NCBI RefSeq assembly: GCF_016342785.1
Contig: NZ_JAEINH010000002.1
Location: forward strand, 96,019 to 160,018
Reading direction: 5' to 3'
DNA from: Sanguibacter suaedae
Lineage (GTDB): Bacteria > Actinomycetota > Actinomycetes > Actinomycetales > Cellulomonadaceae
Length of the DNA: 64,000 nt
The notes beneath the pieces were generated by a model that worked only from the letters and a program-made list of their open reading frames with translations, made no database searches and had not been told where the DNA came from. Below, piece after piece: positions 52,072 through 57,588 of this stretch (position 1 is the stretch's first letter; the number at the start of each line of letters is the position of its first letter). Both the position numbers and the translations under genes were made by a program.

Positions 52072-52117
52072 TGGGGAGTACTCCCCATCGCCGTCCCCGA
52101 GCGGGAGAGCATACGGT
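52072..52117 (+). promoter_or_regulatory. Perfect 16-bp palindrome and promoter of the phospho-signalling cluster
   Basis: TGGGGAGTACTCCCCA (52072-52087) is a perfect palindrome. A TACGGT -10-like box lies at 52112-52117, which places the palindrome's centre at about -44 from the expected start, the usual position for an activator next to the -35 region. It precedes the PP2C gene by about 110 nt. The regulator is unknown. Confidence 0.6.
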
Positions 52118-52197
52118 CGGAGGACGACGGTGGTCGAGCGCTCGACACCCAGCGCAGTCCTCGCGTCGACCGGAGAGGCGGGGAGGTGAGCGACCGA

Positions 52198-52998
52198 GTG
52201 GACGTCATGCACGCTGTGAGCACCCTGCGCTGGGGCGCCACCACTCACGCCGGCCGACGCAGGTCGGCAAACGAGGACTCCTTCCACGCCGCGCGAGGCG
52301 TGTACTTCGTGGCAGACGGGATGGGTGGGCACGAGGCCGGTGCTCGGGCGAGCGCCACGGCCGTCGCCATCCTCTGCGCCCTCGGCGAGAGCGAGAACGC
52401 CACCTCCGACGACGTCCGTGCCGCGGTGAGCGACGCGCACCGCGCGGTGTCGCGGATCGCGACCCGCCCGGGGAAGGGCGCGGGGACCACGCTCTCGGGT
52501 GCGGTGGTCGTCCAGCACGACGGGGTCCCGTCCTGGCTCGTGACGAACGTCGGCGACTCCCGCACCTACCGGTTCGTCGACGGTGTCCTCACCCAGCTCA
52601 CCGTCGACCACTCGCTCGTGCAGGAGCTCCTCGCCGACGGCGCGGTCACCGCCGAGGAGGCCCGCACCTACGCGCGGCGTCACGTCATCACCCGGGCGCT
52701 CGGCGGACTCGTGGAGCCCGAGGTGGACTGCTGGTACCTGCCCATGGTGCCCGGGGAGCGGCTGCTGATCTGCTCGGACGGGCTCACGGACGAGGTCTCG
52801 CCCGGGTGCATCGACGAGGTCCTGCGCACGCAGCCCCACCCGCAGCTCGCCGCCGACCAGCTGGTCAACTATGCGCTGCTCGCCGGAGGGCGGGACAACA
52901 TCACGGTGGTCGTCGTGGACGTCGACGGCGGTCCCTCGCGCGGCACGGGCGAGCACGGGTCACGGTTCGGTCGCCACAGTTCCGTTCTGTCGGCGTAA
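52198..52998 (+). CDS. PP2C-family Ser/Thr protein phosphatase
   Basis: About 266-aa soluble metal-dependent phosphatase that would reverse phosphorylation by the kinase at 54.6 kb. Motifs: RRSANEDSF (metal Asp), VADGMGGHEAG, NVGDSRTYRF, LLICSDGLTDEV and GGRDNITVVVVD. No membrane segment, unlike PstP-type housekeeping phosphatases, so it is a stand-alone cytosolic form. Start is uncertain: the GTG at 52198 has GGGGAGG 11 nt upstream; the GTG at 52186 and ATG at 52207 are alternatives. It lies 54 nt upstream of the FHA gene in the same direction. Confidence 0.93.
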   Translation: MDVMHAVSTLRWGATTHAGRRRSANEDSFHAARGVYFVADGMGGHEAGARASATAVAILCALGESENATSDDVRAAVSDAHRAVSRIATRPGKGAGTTLSGAVVVQHDGVPSWLVTNVGDSRTYRFVDGVLTQLTVDHSLVQELLADGAVTAEEARTYARRHVITRALGGLVEPEVDCWYLPMVPGERLLICSDGLTDEVSPGCIDEVLRTQPHPQLAADQLVNYALLAGGRDNITVVVVDVDGGPSRGTGEHGSRFGRHSSVLSA

Positions 52999-53002
52999 CC
53001 GC

Positions 53003-53008
53003 TACCGT
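53003..53008 (+). promoter_or_regulatory. -10-like box of the FHA-kinase genes
   Basis: TACCGT lies 5 nt before the GTG at 53014 and about 44 nt before the ATG at 53053 that I prefer as start. It could give the FHA and kinase genes a promoter apart from that of the phosphatase gene. Confidence 0.4.
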
Positions 53009-53052
53009 CCGGAGTGCTCCGAGACCCCCTGCGAGAGAGTGACGAGGTGCTG

Positions 53053-54591
53053 ATGTCGGTCCGGTACGCCCCAGGGCGGGCGTTCGCGCTGGTCCATCCC
53101 GGCCTCGTCGTCGTCCTCGACGAGAGCGCCGGGCACGCCCGTGCCCGGGACCTCTGGGCGGCGCTGGGTGCGCTGCCCGCCGACCGTGGGATGGCTCAGG
53201 TCCTCGACGCCGTCACGGAGAGCCTCGACCCCACGTGGCGCGCTCTGCCGTCGTTCGCGGTGGTCGTCGACGTGCTCGACGCGGGTCTCGTGCACGTCGC
53301 CGCCCGTGGGGACCTCGTCGTCGAGGTCCTCGGCGACGAACCCCCGACGCTGGTCGCCGGCAAGGACGTGACGACATGGACGGAGCAGCGCCACGAGGCT
53401 CCCCACGGTCTCGTCGTCCGAGGGGCGGATGCGGTCGGAGCGCCCGCCGGCGACGACGCACTGCTGCTCGCGAGCGGGATCGTCACGGCCTCGCACGTCG
53501 CGTGGGGAAGCGCGGGGTCCGCGGGCGACCTGGACGGCACCGCGGTCACCGACGCGCCGACCGAGGTGACTCCGGTCCCGGTGGCTGCGTCGAAGGAGGT
53601 CGCCGAGGACGTGCCGGCTGCCGAGGGCGTGGTCGAGACGCTCGAGGTCGAGGTCGAGGACGTCCCCGAGGTCCCCGAGGCCCCCGAGGCCCCTGAGGTC
53701 CAGGACGCACCTGAGGCGCCGGACGACGACCTGGGGCTCCCCGACGGGTTGGACCCGGCCGAGCAGGCGGAGCTCGAGTTCGGCAAGACGCTCGCCGACT
53801 TCCCCGACGACCTCGACCCGGCCGATCACGACCCCGTCGCCGCACCCGGCGCGCCTCCGCCCGACGACGACCTCGACGACCTCGACGACAGCACCGTCCT
53901 CTCGCCGGGTGGGCCGCCCGTGGTCCCCCCGCCGGCCGGCCGGCCGGCCCCCTCGGGCTCCCCGGGTCCGGTCCCCCCGCCGCCACCCCCTCCGGTCGAG
54001 TACGGCGTCGTCGTGCCGCCCGGCAGCCCCGGGTTCACGGCAGGCGTGTACGACCCCCCCGCCGCACGGGGGGCTCTCCCGCCCCCTGCAGCCGCTCCCG
54101 CAGGACCGCCGACCCCTGCGGACCCGGCCGGGCCGGGGCCGCAGATCCTCGCCCGCTCGTGCTACTTCGGCCACCCGAACCCGCCCGTCCGGATGACGTG
54201 CGCGCGGTGCGGCGGCGGTCTCAGCCCCAACGCCGAGCTCGTGGAGCGTCCGGCGCTCGGCAGGGTGCGGTTCTCCCACGGCGAGGTCGTCGAGCTCGGC
54301 CGGCACGTCGTCGTCGGGCGATTCCCGCAGGAGCAGGCAGGGTCCGGCGCCCGTCCGCACCTGGTGTCCGTCGAGAGCCCGAGCCAGGACGTCTCGCGCT
54401 CCCACCTGGAGATCCGGCTCGAGGGGTGGCACGTGCTCCTCGTCGACCTCGACACCGTGAACGGGACCACTCTTCTCCGCGCCGGACAGGCACCGCGTCG
54501 CCTGCACCCGCTCGAGCCGACGCTCGTCGCCGACGGGGACGTCGTCGACCTCGGTGACGGCGTCGTCCTCACCTTCGAGGGCGTCGTATGA
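53053..54591 (+). CDS. FHA domain protein with zinc-ribbon-like segment and PP2C-like N-terminus
   Basis: About 512 aa in four parts. Residues 1-150 form a beta-rich domain whose segments (AGLVHVAARGDLVVEVLG, DDALLLASGIV) line up loosely with PP2C strands but lack the metal-binding aspartates. Residues 165-365 are an acidic then Pro-rich linker. Residues 370-391 hold Cys/His spaced as CYFGH and CARC, like a zinc ribbon. The C-terminal FHA domain (about 400-512) has GR, SRSH and NGT motif residues for phosphothreonine binding. The ATG has GAGG upstream; a GTG at 53014 is possible. The stop overlaps the kinase ATG, so both are made together. Confidence 0.85.
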   Translation: MSVRYAPGRAFALVHPGLVVVLDESAGHARARDLWAALGALPADRGMAQVLDAVTESLDPTWRALPSFAVVVDVLDAGLVHVAARGDLVVEVLGDEPPTLVAGKDVTTWTEQRHEAPHGLVVRGADAVGAPAGDDALLLASGIVTASHVAWGSAGSAGDLDGTAVTDAPTEVTPVPVAASKEVAEDVPAAEGVVETLEVEVEDVPEVPEAPEAPEVQDAPEAPDDDLGLPDGLDPAEQAELEFGKTLADFPDDLDPADHDPVAAPGAPPPDDDLDDLDDSTVLSPGGPPVVPPPAGRPAPSGSPGPVPPPPPPPVEYGVVVPPGSPGFTAGVYDPPAARGALPPPAAAPAGPPTPADPAGPGPQILARSCYFGHPNPPVRMTCARCGGGLSPNAELVERPALGRVRFSHGEVVELGRHVVVGRFPQEQAGSGARPHLVSVESPSQDVSRSHLEIRLEGWHVLLVDLDTVNGTTLLRAGQAPRRLHPLEPTLVADGDVVDLGDGVVLTFEGVV

Positions 54592-56213
54592 GGGCTCGCC
54601 GCCCACCGTCCGTGCCACCGCAGATCGACGGGTACGAGTATCGGCGAGTCATCGGGTCGGGCGGCTTCGCGGACGTCTTCCTCTACCAGGAGCACCGGCC
54701 ACGCCGGCTGGTGGCCATCAAGGTCCTCCTCCCGCAGTGGTCCGACGACGCCACCAAGCACGCGTTCTCCGCGGAGGCGGACCTCATGGCCTCGGTGTCC
54801 GGCCACCCGTCGATCGTGACGATCTTCGACAGCGACGTCACCGTCGACGGCAGGCTCTACCTCGCCATGGAGTACTGCCCGCGTCCCAACCTCTCGTCCC
54901 GCTACAAGCAGGAACGACTGAGCCTCGCGGAGGCCCTGCGGATCGGTGTCCAGATCTCGGGTGCCGTGGAGACGGCGCACCGGCTCGGCATCGTGCACCG
55001 CGACATCAAGCCTGCGAACATCCTGGTCACCGCGTACGGACACCCCGCGCTCACCGACTTCGGGATCTCCGCGACCATCGAGCAGAGCGAGTCGGGCGCC
55101 GACGGCATGTCCGTCCCGTGGTCCCCCCCGGAGAACCTCGCGGCGGTGCCGCGCAGCGGGGTGACCAGCGACGTCTGGTCGCTCGCCGCCACCGTCTACA
55201 CACTCCTCGCCGGGCGGTCCCCCTTCGAGGTGCCCGGCGGCACCAACACCCAGTCCGCGCTCGTCGACCGCATCACCCACGACCCACTCCCGCCGATCGG
55301 CCGGGGCGACGTCCCCGGGTCCCTCGAACGAGTGCTCGCCGTGGCCATGGCCAAGCACCCGGGCATGCGGTACCCGACGGTGCTCGAGCTCGGCCGCGCG
55401 CTCCAGCAGGTGCAGACAGAGCTGTCGCTCGCCACGACCGCCATCGACATCATCGAGGACCCCGCGACGGCCGGCTCGGAGGTCGTGGCCCTCCCTGCAC
55501 GCCCGGACGACGTCGACGGGGGCACCAGGATGCGGCTGGCCACCGACCGGGTGCACCCCGCGTACGGCGTGACGCACAGCAGCGAGCCCGCCAGGCCGGC
55601 AGCGCTCGCCCGCCTCGTCGACGGCGTGTCCACGTCCCAGGACGTCGGGTCCGACTCGGCGTCGACCAGCTACGGGTCCCTCCACGGGGTGCCGTACGTC
55701 CCCACGGCGACGACCTCGTCCCCCACGACCTCGACGGATGCTCCGGCGACGGGTTCGGGTGCGCGGAGCATCGGGTACGGGGTCCCTGCGGGAGCTGCCG
55801 CCCACCCCGAGGTGATCACGGACCGTCCCCGGGGCAGGCGGCGGGGGGCCACCGCCCTCGCGGTCGTCGCCGTCGTCCTCGGCGGCCTGGGTGGAGCGCT
55901 CCTCCTCGACGCGCTGATCGGTGGCGGGGTCCCGGATGCGGACGTCCCGACGCCCGCCGGTCTGGAGGGCGCCGCGAGCGGGAGCGTCGCGGTCTTCACG
56001 TGGTCCAACCCGGACGCGCAGGACGGCGACTTCTACGCGTACCGCCCCGTCGACGCGTCGGGTGACGGTGGCGAGAGCACCCCCTTCAGGCAGACCTCCG
56101 CCCTCACGGCGTCGATCAGCACGTCCGGCCGGGACGGTGCCCCGTGCATCGAGGTGACGGTGGTGCGCGACGGGCGCACCTCCGAGGTCCCCGCCCGGGA
56201 GTGCCTCGGATGA
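54588..56213 (+). CDS. Transmembrane Ser/Thr protein kinase
   Basis: 541-aa Hanks-type kinase. Kinase domain about 14-280: glycine loop GSGGFADVF, ATP Lys K45 (VAIK), catalytic HRDIKPANI with D139, DFG with D157, and a PPE in place of APE. The activation loop has several Ser but no Thr, unusual for bacterial kinases that autophosphorylate on Thr. A Ser/Thr/Pro-rich juxtamembrane region (about 300-415) and one helix (about 420-445, ALAVVAVVLGGLGGALLL) precede a ~95-residue outer domain that looks fibronectin III-like and ends with a likely disulfide (PCIEV...RECLG). There are no PASTA repeats, so it is not PknB. Coupled to the FHA gene by ATGA. Confidence 0.93.
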   Translation: MRARRPPSVPPQIDGYEYRRVIGSGGFADVFLYQEHRPRRLVAIKVLLPQWSDDATKHAFSAEADLMASVSGHPSIVTIFDSDVTVDGRLYLAMEYCPRPNLSSRYKQERLSLAEALRIGVQISGAVETAHRLGIVHRDIKPANILVTAYGHPALTDFGISATIEQSESGADGMSVPWSPPENLAAVPRSGVTSDVWSLAATVYTLLAGRSPFEVPGGTNTQSALVDRITHDPLPPIGRGDVPGSLERVLAVAMAKHPGMRYPTVLELGRALQQVQTELSLATTAIDIIEDPATAGSEVVALPARPDDVDGGTRMRLATDRVHPAYGVTHSSEPARPAALARLVDGVSTSQDVGSDSASTSYGSLHGVPYVPTATTSSPTTSTDAPATGSGARSIGYGVPAGAAAHPEVITDRPRGRRRGATALAVVAVVLGGLGGALLLDALIGGGVPDADVPTPAGLEGAASGSVAVFTWSNPDAQDGDFYAYRPVDASGDGGESTPFRQTSALTASISTSGRDGAPCIEVTVVRDGRTSEVPARECLG

Positions 56214-56226
56214 CGGTGGCGCCCGA

Positions 56227-56232
56227 TAGAGT
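56227..56232 (+). promoter_or_regulatory. -10-like box upstream of the FHA-like/HTH gene
   Basis: TAGAGT lies 13 nt after the kinase stop and 94 nt before the ATG at 56326. The 112-nt gap suggests the last two genes of the cluster have an additional promoter. Confidence 0.4.
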
Positions 56233-56325
56233 GCGTCGAGCCGGTGACGACTGGTGGAGCCGCAGCAGGACAGGCGGAGGAGCACCGTCGTCGACGGACG
56301 ACACGGACCGAGGAGCATGCACGCG

Positions 56326-57021
56326 ATGACCGAACTTGCGATCGACTACTGCGGGGAGTGGTTCCGCCCGAGCGTCGACGAACCGTTCGACATCGGCCGG
56401 GAGGCCGACCTCTCGGTCGACGACAACCCGTACCTCCACCGACGGCTGCTGCGCATCACGCACAGCGACGGGATCTGGTGGATCGCGAACGTGGGGTCGC
56501 TCATCTCGGTGACCATCTGCGACGCGAGCGGCGGGGTCCAGTCGTGGCTCTCCCCGGGCAACCGTCTGCCCATCGTCTTCAAGCTCACGACGATCGTCTT
56601 CACCGCGGGCCCCACGACCTACGAGATCCTCGCGCACCTCGAGGGCTCGCCCTACGAGGAGGTCCTCACGGACGACCCGCTCGTGGGGGAGACCACCATC
56701 GGCGTCATCTCGTTCACGACGAGCCAGAAGCAGCTCATCATCGCGCTGTGCGAACCGATGCTCAAGCGTGACGGCGCCGGCCTCAGCGAGATCCCCTCGA
56801 CGGCTGAGGCGGCGAGCCGGCTGGGGTGGGCGACCACGCGGTTCAACCGGAAGCTCGACAACGTGTGCGACAAGCTCGACCGCATGGGCGTCAAGGGGCT
56901 GCGTGGCGGACCCAAGCAGCTCGCCACGAACCGTCGGGCGCGCCTCGTCGAGTACGCGGTGACGTCGCGCCTCGTCACCGCCGCCGACCTCCCGCTGCTC
57001 GACGTCGAGTCCGATGACTGA
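56326..57021 (+). CDS. FHA-like/winged-helix protein, putative phospho-responsive regulator
   Basis: About 231 aa with two domains. The N-terminal ~110 residues resemble a divergent FHA sandwich: FDIGREADLSVDDNPYLHRR holds the GR motif and HR in place of SxxH, then VTI and beta strands to YEILAHLEG. Residues 130-205 are helical and resemble a winged or LuxR-like HTH (TSQKQLIIALCEPML, STAEAASRLGWATTRFNRKLDNVCDKL, then GVKGLRGG). I do not know a named family, and no function is shown. The order is opposite to EmbR, where the HTH comes first. ATG 56326 is chosen because GAGGAG at 56310 is 10 nt upstream; the ATG at 56317 is too close. Confidence 0.75.
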   Translation: MTELAIDYCGEWFRPSVDEPFDIGREADLSVDDNPYLHRRLLRITHSDGIWWIANVGSLISVTICDASGGVQSWLSPGNRLPIVFKLTTIVFTAGPTTYEILAHLEGSPYEEVLTDDPLVGETTIGVISFTTSQKQLIIALCEPMLKRDGAGLSEIPSTAEAASRLGWATTRFNRKLDNVCDKLDRMGVKGLRGGPKQLATNRRARLVEYAVTSRLVTAADLPLLDVESDD

Positions 57022-57499
57022 GGGCGACGAGACGCTCGAGTACCCGTCCGACGCCTTCCCCGCACCTCCCCGCCTGGCGATGGTCCGCCCGGTCGGCTGG
57101 GTAGCGCTCGCGGGCGTCGGGCTCCCGCTCGCCGTCGCCCAGGAGGTCCCTGCCGGGCAGTTCCGGCCCAACGTCCTCGTCACGGTCCAGCGGTTCGGTG
57201 TGGGGCACACGGTGGCGGACTCCCGGTCTGCTCTGGCGAAGCGGCTCAAGGCGCTGCCGAAGTTCACGGAGACCCTCCGTGAGGACGCTGCGGAGATGCT
57301 CGGGAGCACGGGGCTCCGCGTCGAGGGCTACTTCTCGGACGGCAAGGGCGGGACGCTCGTCCAGGCGGTCCGCACGGTCGTGCTCGAGAACGGTCCGGTG
57401 GTCGACGTCGTCGAGACGACCGGTACCTGCGCCGGGTCGCAGGTGGAGAGCGCCTTCGCGGACATCCGGCGGATCCAGGACAGCCTGACCCTGCGCTGA
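57014..57499 (+). CDS. Hypothetical protein, LpqN/LpqT-like fold suspected
   Basis: 161-aa soluble protein whose start overlaps the FHA-like/HTH gene by 8 nt, so the two are coupled. After a 25-residue acidic start it shows a pattern of alternating strands with one helix: WVALAGVGLPLAVAQ, FRPNVLVTVQRFGVG, LREDAAEMLGSTGLRVEGYF, LVQAVRTVVLENGPVVDVVETTG, and a final helix (VESAFADIRRIQDSLTL). This resembles LpqN/LpqT and DUF1795-type mixed alpha/beta proteins, but it has no signal peptide or lipobox. The similarity is by pattern only. A hairpin terminator follows after 16 nt. Confidence 0.6.
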   Translation: MTEGDETLEYPSDAFPAPPRLAMVRPVGWVALAGVGLPLAVAQEVPAGQFRPNVLVTVQRFGVGHTVADSRSALAKRLKALPKFTETLREDAAEMLGSTGLRVEGYFSDGKGGTLVQAVRTVVLENGPVVDVVETTGTCAGSQVESAFADIRRIQDSLTLR

Positions 57500-57515
57500 A
57501 CCCACCCCGCACCAC

Positions 57516-57539
57516 CGGCGTCCGCATGATGGGACGCCG
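57516..57539 (+). terminator. Terminator of the phospho-signalling cluster
   Basis: An 8-bp perfect stem (57516-57523 with 57532-57539) with an 8-nt loop, 16 nt after the last stop. A TTTTT run follows at 57556-57560, 17 nt beyond the stem. Confidence 0.6.
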
Positions 57540-57588
57540 TATCCACCTGGCGAGATTTTTGTCAGTCTGGTACGGGTGCGAGTGACCC

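Follow-up and report, generated by a model that had tools for sequence, protein, structure and literature searches.

Gene organization of the cassette

A computational analysis has been carried out on a signalling cassette located in a 64,000-nucleotide stretch of the Sanguibacter suaedae genome (contig NZ_JAEINH010000002.1, positions 96,019 to 160,018; this whole stretch is called the window). The cassette consists of five genes preceded by a palindrome, and the analysis has been centered on gene 4, whose product combines a predicted FHA fold with a LuxR/NarL-type helix-turn-helix (HTH) domain (FHA-HTH protein), and on the relation between this candidate regulator and the palindrome. The features of the cassette, in window coordinates, are the following:

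52072..52087, no strand: palindrome TGGGGAGTACTCCCCA, predicted to be the operator of the FHA-HTH regulator; its position is kept in Sanguibacter-type loci, and FHA-HTH-bearing genomes have this element ahead of WXG100 genes
52112..52117, + strand: predicted -10 box TACGGT, 24 bases past the palindrome (TANNNT at offset 40)
52186..52998, + strand: gene 1, PP2C-type Ser/Thr phosphatase, 270 residues; alternative starts at 52198 or 52207
53053..54591, + strand: gene 2, FHA protein, 512 residues if the start is 53053; CxxxH...CxxC ribbon-like motif and C-terminal FHA domain with canonical GR / SRxH / NGT
54588..56213, + strand: gene 3, membrane Ser/Thr kinase, 541 residues; transmembrane segment near residue 422 and outer domain of about 90 residues, FN3-like by eye only
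56317..57021, + strand: gene 4, protein with FHA fold and LuxR/NarL-type HTH, 234 residues, predicted transcription activator; alternative start at 56326
57014..57499, + strand: gene 5, LpqN-like protein, 161 residues; no signal peptide apparent by eye; 8-bp overlap with the regulator gene
57516..57552, + strand: weak terminator-like hairpins (stem and terminator-like site)

The first-pass annotation of this DNA had described five genes on one strand, and the listing of open reading frames in the window has confirmed all of them (PP2C, FHA, kinase, FHA-HTH and LpqN-like), in the same place and orientation, with overlaps of 4 bp between genes 2 and 3 and 8 bp between genes 4 and 5. The PP2C protein matched PF13672 in Pfam (3.7e-10) and the Stp1-type model of NCBIfam at 9.6e-56, yet under the cut-off of this model. 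The gene 2 protein matched PF00498 (2.7e-7) and the kinase matched PF00069 (2.1e-39), with intact kinase motifs (GSGGFADV, AIK, HRDIKPAN and DFG) and a single hydrophobic, transmembrane-like stretch at about residue 422. The PASTA family was not among the Pfam matches of the kinase, as expected for the non-PASTA outer domain proposed earlier. The name LpqN-like given to gene 5 holds for its relatives in the loci L020 and L009, which match Lpp-LpqN (PF10738) at 1.3e-7 and 1.5e-10, and not for the window protein, without significant Pfam match, PF10738 included, or for the L001 relative, without PF10738 match. The terminator placed at the end of the cassette proved to be weak: hairpins are present, with an 8-bp stem at 57516-57539 that lacks a T run immediately after it, and one terminator-like site of 5 pairs at 57535-57552 (0.3 expected).

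In the gene 2 FHA protein the GR, SRxH (SRNH in one member) and NGT residues were all kept in a 12-member alignment (A3), and this protein looks like the phosphothreonine reader of the cassette; gene 4 rather resembles a transcription factor whose FHA domain has been altered. The CxxxH...CxxC ribbon-like motif, located ahead of the FHA domain, was also invariant in A3, and the protein (53053-54591) has in addition a long linker that is acidic and Pro-rich.

Predicted structure of the FHA-HTH protein

Relatives of gene 4 were found encoded in 566 of 588 pattern-matched stretches of the GTDB collection, the best 80 being kept as loci (L labels). The closest named relatives belong to Sanguibacter gelidistatuariae (91%) and S. 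suarezii (86%), the L001 counterpart is 91% identical, and the mean column identity in an alignment of 42 members was 69%. The window protein had no Pfam match at E<=1, the Pfam FHA family was matched by one of the 42 members only (E 0.079, not the window member), and Pfam and PDB sequence searches with the family gave nothing useful.

The AlphaFold2 model of the gene 4 product (mean predicted local distance difference test score, pLDDT, 80; predicted template modelling score 0.50) has an FHA beta-sandwich in its N-terminal part, about residues 2-111 (6ccd, Z 12.9, root-mean-square deviation 2.3, 95 residues aligned), with the FHA domain of EmbR (2fez, Z 12.6) among the top fold matches. When the last 104 residues were modelled alone (pLDDT 86.8), the chains in all 50 fold matches listed were of the LuxR/NarL HTH type, the best being VqmA and DegU at a moderate Z of 8.9 (deviation 1.9, 71 aligned), followed by VraR, LiaR and NarL at about 8, and the four-helix GerE-like fold was recognized in the model. 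Both the FHA and the HTH fold supposed for the 56.3-57.0 kb product are thus predicted by structure models, and the write, erase and read set with a DNA-binding member described in the first-pass annotation was recovered, PP2C, FHA and kinase by Pfam and HTH by model.

Conservation and origin of the locus

In a sample of 248 genomes drawn from the order (G labels, 85 genera), the FHA-HTH family was found in 104 genomes and 42 genera. Six of these 104 were weak matches (E 1.2e-15 to 1.5e-12), all from one genus (label f14 g45); these distant relatives are those of G125, G139 and four more f14 g45 genomes, and in the two regions fetched (L159, L160) the other locus genes were not found nearby. 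An apparent split of the FHA-HTH gene in G176 has been rejected because a run of N in the assembly accounts for it. At least 77 of the 104 genomes have a same-strand kinase match no more than 3 kb upstream of the FHA-HTH gene. FtsK was matched immediately downstream of it in 37 genomes and, on one side or the other, within 25 kb in 50. In the 80 loci, where genes were counted from tblastn matches that missed some kinases, HRD and DFG kinase motifs were found within 2.6 kb upstream of the FHA-HTH gene in 71. The four-gene core PP2C-FHA-membrane kinase-FHA-HTH recurs across the order, so that conservation beyond the species, which had been set as a check on the neighbourhood, is widespread for this core; the exact five-gene layout is found only in the window, L001 and L128.

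The relatives reveal a larger locus. The gene order in the Cellulosimicrobium locus L020 is transglutaminase, RDD-FHA, PP2C, FHA, kinase, FHA-HTH, FtsK/SpoIIIE with an FHA domain (1494 residues), WXG100-like (below the Pfam cut-off), LpqN-like, FprA and HtpX. The order in L149 is idsA, fn3, MoxR, DUF58, transglutaminase, RDD/FHA, PP2C, FHA, kinase, FHA-HTH and FtsK, and L004, whose contig has the same length, continues downstream with WXG, LpqN-like and FprA. Because of this upstream order and downstream continuation, the whole ancestral locus spans from idsA to fprA, which are the borders of the window cassette itself, flanked upstream by a NuoN-like gene and a polyprenyl synthase gene (idsA) and downstream by FprA-like and M48 (HtpX-like) genes; the names NuoN and FprA are presumed from family resemblance. 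The genes from fn3 to RDD-FHA, upstream, and FtsK-WXG100, downstream, have been lost from the window, which keeps a remnant. The kinase has also been lost in L002, and L006, L143 (both Jonesia) and L147 retain only FHA, FHA-HTH and LpqN-like, the kinase and PP2C both being gone in L006. In those loci of other genera in which LpqN was detected next to FtsK-WXG100, the LpqN gene is placed about 5-7 kb downstream, and an alternative order, PP2C-FHA-kinase-FHAHTH-fn3-moxR-duf58, is present in L130, L131, L132, L134, L137, L140 and L142.

Neither an FHA-FtsK ATPase (TsdC) nor a WXG100 protein (TsdA) was found among the open reading frames of 49.5-60.5 kb in the window. The best FtsK matches in the genome of the strain (35% and 30%) are on other contigs, none at E<=1e-90, and the FtsK of contig C18 was rejected as a relocated ATPase, since in the genomes G001-G004 the copy next to FHA-HTH scores lower than a separate gene. 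The window kinase is 65% identical to the FHA-HTH-linked kinase of L020 versus 56% to a kinase of contig C4. A free-standing novel pathway has been rejected on this locus history: by origin, the set is a remnant, in this genus, of a larger PFNA/type VII secretion locus.

The C4 kinase belongs to a second triad of the same genome (C4:62113-77224; L091, L095), in the order FHA, PP2C, FHA, kinase, Ig/FN3 protein, MoxR, DUF58 and TgpA-type transglutaminase, the PFNA gene set known from Bifidobacterium (PMC8430577). Three records titled Sphaerisporangium, Sporosarcina and Acidobacteria metagenome-assembled genome (L013, L045, L068) hold Cellulosimicrobium- or Arthrobacter-like loci and are probably mislabelled or contaminated.

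A palindromic site upstream of WXG100 genes

The palindrome at 52072-52087 is a perfect 16-mer, and perfect 16-mer palindromes are common in the window (13 seen, 4.3 expected from base composition). It has been kept in place upstream of the PP2C gene in all four Sanguibacter-type loci (window, L001, L002 and L128, the last with one mismatch to the pattern) while the flanks differ, and an 18-base inverted-repeat site, ATGGGGASNNSTCCCCAT, is found upstream of WXG100 genes in many of the 80 FHA-HTH loci. Chance was rejected as its origin: such palindromes are frequent as such, but this one is kept in place and is also present at WXG100 genes.

The search pattern TGGGGANNNNTCCCCA was fixed first and then applied to regions fetched afterwards. 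A locus was scored when it had a detectable WXG gene, and the site was counted within 300 bp upstream with at most one mismatch. WXG genes were identified with a hidden Markov model built from five seeds and iterated on open reading frames, including those of the test loci of the first set; the sites were not used for this model. Loci in which it matched no WXG gene were excluded (3/14 and 15/20 negative, 13/60 positive). In genomes with the FHA-HTH gene (positive), the site was found in 15 of the 17 WXG-bearing loci of a first set with FtsK directly downstream, in 13/18 of a second set with FtsK elsewhere (11 loci distant from FHA-HTH, the other 9 no more than 25 kb away) and in 4/12 of a third set, mostly of a more divergent FtsK type and including three loci (G255, G044, G210) within 5 kb of FHA-HTH, 20 loci having been fetched for each. 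In genomes without the gene (negative) it was found in 0/11 (14 fetched) and 0/5 (20 fetched). The totals are 32/47 positive versus 0/16 negative loci. Exact sites in the fetched regions numbered 18, 11 and 3 versus 0 and 0, and the reversed control pattern gave no exact site in any set. With two mismatches allowed, the counts were 16/17, 16/18 and 4/12 versus 1/11 and 1/5.

The second and third positive sets together (17/30) differ from the negatives with a Fisher p of 8e-5, and in five genera with both states (f11g20, f9g18, f18g36, f19g30 and f11g69) the site was present in 14/17 positive versus 0/8 negative loci (p 1.5e-4), all site p-values given here ignoring shared ancestry. Among loci separated from FHA-HTH by more than 25 kb or located on a different contig, 9/10 of the second set and 2/9 of the third have the site, together 11/19 versus 0/16 (p 1.9e-4). 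These distant loci bear on the explanation that the cassette is a generic envelope-stress Ser/Thr kinase module, linked to type VII genes by a coincidence of neighbourhood. This would agree with the 36 of 104 FHA-HTH genomes in which a kinase is present and no FtsK match (E<=1e-90, same strand) occurs within 25 kb, but the presence of the site at FtsK-WXG loci so far from the cassette makes it quite improbable.

The site was also recovered without a preset half-site. Among the 6-N4-6 inverted repeats ahead of WXG genes, TGGGGA clearly led in the first positive set (13 genes) and in the second (9 genes), where every other repeat occurred once; it also came first in the third set (3, next 2) and was absent from the negative sets. 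Since a kinase match at E<=1e-60 is retained by 10 of the 14 negative genomes in the first set, the site tracks the FHA-HTH gene and not the kinase, FtsK or WXG100 genes.

In 155 regions from FHA-HTH-positive genomes, 68 distinct exact sites were found, 50 of which precede WXG genes according to the hidden Markov model (one of them, in L230, overlapping the end of an FtsK frame). The other 18 include sites of PP2C genes (L001, L002), LpqN-like genes (L140 by tblastn; L141 by eye only, without Pfam match) and small WXG-like open reading frames with weak or no Pfam support (L015, L021, L024, L222). Outside the genus, an operator ahead of the PP2C operon (L130, L132, L152) was rejected, the matches lying inside the end of a conserved upstream coding frame, which reads AYWGVFPT or GYWGVFPT in all three.

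Promoter geometry

A sigma-70 scan found no promoter-like site for the cassette. The 50 distinct exact sites upstream of WXG genes revealed a bias beyond the pattern, with A before the site in 88%, T after it in 100% and C or G at the inner positions in 96% and 100%. TANNNT begins at offset 39 or 40 in 31 of these 50 sites versus 0-1 in 12 control windows. As close relatives contribute many of the 50, the sites were also thinned to 31 representatives, and 24 of these have the -10 box. At the PP2C palindrome the offset is 40 in the window and 39 in L001, L002 and L128. The predicted -10 box sits 23-24 bases downstream of the palindrome, and a start 6-7 bases past it would put the palindrome centre about 43 bases upstream, which is the class II position for LuxR-type activators. 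The palindromic promoter of the first-pass annotation was right about the palindrome, which is better read as an operator followed by this -10 box; it points to target genes, which were not available to that annotation.

Sites elsewhere in the Sanguibacter suaedae genome

The own genome contains 27 matches to TGGGGANNNNTCCCCA with at most one mismatch, 9 of them exact, and the reversed control pattern gave 6. When the 27 were checked in both directions, six had a -10 box at offset 39-40 (C labels are contigs), at the following places:

Window palindrome: PP2C operon
C3:47362: open reading frame of 104 residues, no Pfam match
C1:56530: YbaB/WXG100-like operon, one mismatch
C17:186150: leucine-rich-variant protein gene beside the C17 EccC-type/WXG100 locus, one mismatch
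C20:104922 (L182:2923): T2SSE-family ATPase gene (Tad/CpaF-like by eye) 200 bp downstream, one mismatch
C18:42799: secreted-looking protein, no Pfam match, one mismatch

From the T2SSE-family site, perhaps of a Tad pilus, the regulon may reach beyond type VII genes. The C17 locus (L092, C17:182000-201000) is a separate EccC-type ATPase locus with two WXG100 genes, this pair having two one-mismatch palindromes 132 and 189 bp upstream, without -10 box. Two exact palindromes without -10 box at the fixed offset lie 120 bp upstream of clpB (L166:4242, C3:38741) and 90 bp upstream of a sigma-70-family gene, flagellar-type by eye, that is followed by a flagellin gene according to Pfam (L169:17225, C18:56224). 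The clpB, flagellar-type sigma, AIM24, SAF and hydrolase genes are not claimed as targets because their sites have no -10 box at this offset.

The sites at clpB and at the flagellar-type sigma gene would fit a different explanation, in which another regulator, co-inherited with the locus, binds the palindrome, with the FHA-HTH protein acting at other places or, at the post-translational level only, on the secretion ATPase. In the same direction, a -10 box at offset 39-40 was found in only one of the eight exact own-genome sites besides that of PP2C, and the binding of FHA-HTH to the palindrome is itself a prediction from sequence. We consider this explanation rather unlikely, since the FtsK and WXG genes of genomes lacking the FHA-HTH gene do not carry the site, the kinase being still matched in most first-set negative genomes as described above, and since the FHA-HTH protein has a fitting domain type and adjacency.

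That the cassette is a degenerating remnant without present regulatory function in this genus is very improbable. The fn3 to RDD/FHA and FtsK-WXG genes are gone, further genes are missing from L002 (kinase) and L006 (kinase and PP2C), and the second triad on C4 would also agree with decay, but the regulator is 91% identical to that of L001, the kinase motifs are intact, the operator and -10 box are found in 4/4 Sanguibacter-type loci despite differing flanks, and a -10 box accompanies five further own-genome sites.

Proposed regulatory mechanism

Through the palindrome, the FHA-HTH protein of this PFNA/type VII-derived cassette probably activates type VII substrate genes and, within the genus, also the operon that encodes it. 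Conservation, folds, linkage, locus history, co-occurrence of site and regulator and promoter spacing were obtained by computation; DNA binding, activation, phospho-input and ligand are inferred. The cassette would derive from an ancestral PFNA/type VII (T7SSd-like) locus as its signalling part. The gene 4 product would be an activator of transcription that combines FHA as the input domain with a LuxR/NarL-type domain for DNA contact, predicted to bind ATGGGGASNNSTCCCCAT as a dimer, centred about 43 bases upstream of the predicted transcription start in class II geometry. Once bound, it would turn on WXG100 and WXG-like genes, probably some LpqN-like genes and, in Sanguibacter, its own PP2C-FHA-kinase-regulator-LpqN operon, as a positive feedback. 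The outer domain of the kinase may sense, the canonical FHA protein may read and PP2C may erase, and together they would set the activity of the regulator. In the genus of the window the linked ATPase and WXG100 genes would have been lost, with the regulator persisting and other putative sites lying near type VII-type and pilus-type genes.

Several results weigh against this mechanism. At the WXG genes, 15 of the 47 positive loci lack the site at up to one mismatch, only 2/9 distant loci of the divergent FtsK type have it, and 2/16 negative loci match too when two mismatches are allowed. In the own genome, 21 of the 27 sites lack the -10 box, the C17 WXG100 pair included. Outside the genus, the L130, L132 and L152 matches are coding and do not count as sites of the kinase operon, and the Jonesia loci L006 and L143 keep the regulator and have no site at up to two mismatches in the locus. 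In L002 and L006 the regulator occurs without a linked kinase. When Foldseek was used alone, the best E for the gene 4 HTH was 0.12 (none <0.1), LysR- and MntR-type HTH chains ranking first. The FHA pocket has Gly27-Arg28 invariant in 42/42 members, with His41 at the canonical Ser position in 42/42 and, at the canonical Asn position (63), Leu in 26, Ile in 13, Val in 1 and Thr in 1 of 42 (the four commonest; residues matched by hand), so that the full canonical phosphothreonine set (GR, SRxH, NG) is found in the neighbouring gene 2 FHA domain and not in gene 4. Arg42 of this pocket is invariant as well, like Arg28 and His41. A profile comparison of the gene 4 family with the gene 2 FHA family did not align the FHA parts. 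Because the canonical Ser and Asn are missing and the profiles do not align there, direct phosphothreonine reading by the gene 4 FHA domain is doubtful.

A wider reading can be put forward tentatively, as less likely to be right than wrong: the cassette could be a Ser/Thr-kinase counterpart of the two-component response regulator, in which a membrane kinase would signal to a dedicated FHA-LuxR factor with a fixed class II operator, acting on type VII substrate genes across the Micrococcales and with a new, non-canonical phospho-ligand pocket in its FHA domain.

Comparison with known systems

To our knowledge, the switching-on of type VII secretion outside mycobacteria and firmicutes is mostly unknown. 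The LuxR/NarL-type HTH proteins DegU, VraR, NarL and DosR share the C-terminal fold of the gene 4 model, and DosR-type palindromes resemble that of the cassette; the input of these proteins is a receiver or ligand domain, whereas that of gene 4 is FHA. A literature search (open-licence PMC papers, at the level of listings) found no FHA-LuxR regulator, no mention of this palindrome motif and no type VII regulation in these genera.

The first-pass annotation knew of no described pathway with this composition, and relatives have in fact been described (PFNA, PMC8430577; T7SSd, PMC11217815; EspM, PMC7002343). Similar in architecture, judging from models and descriptions, is EspM (MMAR_5438, Rv3863), an ESX-1 regulator with N-terminal FHA and C-terminal HTH, encoded beside a type VII locus, that controls type VII genes and for which DNA binding has been shown (PMC7002343, PMC11005418). 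Control of type VII genes by an FHA-HTH protein is thus of an already known kind. Unlike gene 4, EspM is longer (C-terminal fragment to residue 363), has two HTH domains around a helical bundle and represses whiB6, and the passages on EspM name no kinase partner or operator (PMC7002343, PMC11005418). EmbR is also an FHA transcription regulator, phosphorylated by a membrane Ser/Thr kinase, but it has an OmpR-like HTH, the FHA domain at the C-terminal end and cell-wall targets (PMC6213207).

Parts like the FHA-FtsK ATPase, WXG100, membrane Ser/Thr kinase and large Ig-like protein of T7SSd (Garrett et al. 2024, PMC11217815) occur in the loci of relatives. In the window the ATPase and WXG100 are missing, whereas relatives such as L020 have them; the window kinase agrees with TsdD by family and transmembrane segment only, and an Ig/FN3 protein, a possible counterpart of the Ig-like TsdI, is found on contig C4 and in relatives' loci, not beside the window cassette. 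As described in the passages on T7SSd, its five core parts include no transcription factor, PP2C or stand-alone FHA protein, unlike the cassette; a LytR-like regulator is named there for T7SSi, and the output of the T7SSd kinases is left open (PMC11217815). The Bifidobacterium PFNA cluster has kinase, FN3, MoxR-type AAA, DUF58 and transglutaminase genes, with PP2C and FHA in some species, and WXG100 is not mentioned in the parts of that paper on the cluster (PMC8430577). Of these five adjacent genes the window cassette has the kinase only; all five, together with PP2C and FHA, are present on contig C4 of this genome, away from the window.

As far as the literature search shows, the LuxR-type domain, the kinase linkage, the operator and the host range are new. 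The PFNA and T7SSd literatures, between which no connection is drawn in the relevant passages of PMC8430577 and PMC11217815, are joined here, and in genera such as Oerskovia, Isoptericola or Brachybacterium the candidate regulator, the 18-bp operator, the promoter geometry and the target genes make the output of the T7SSd kinase directly testable.

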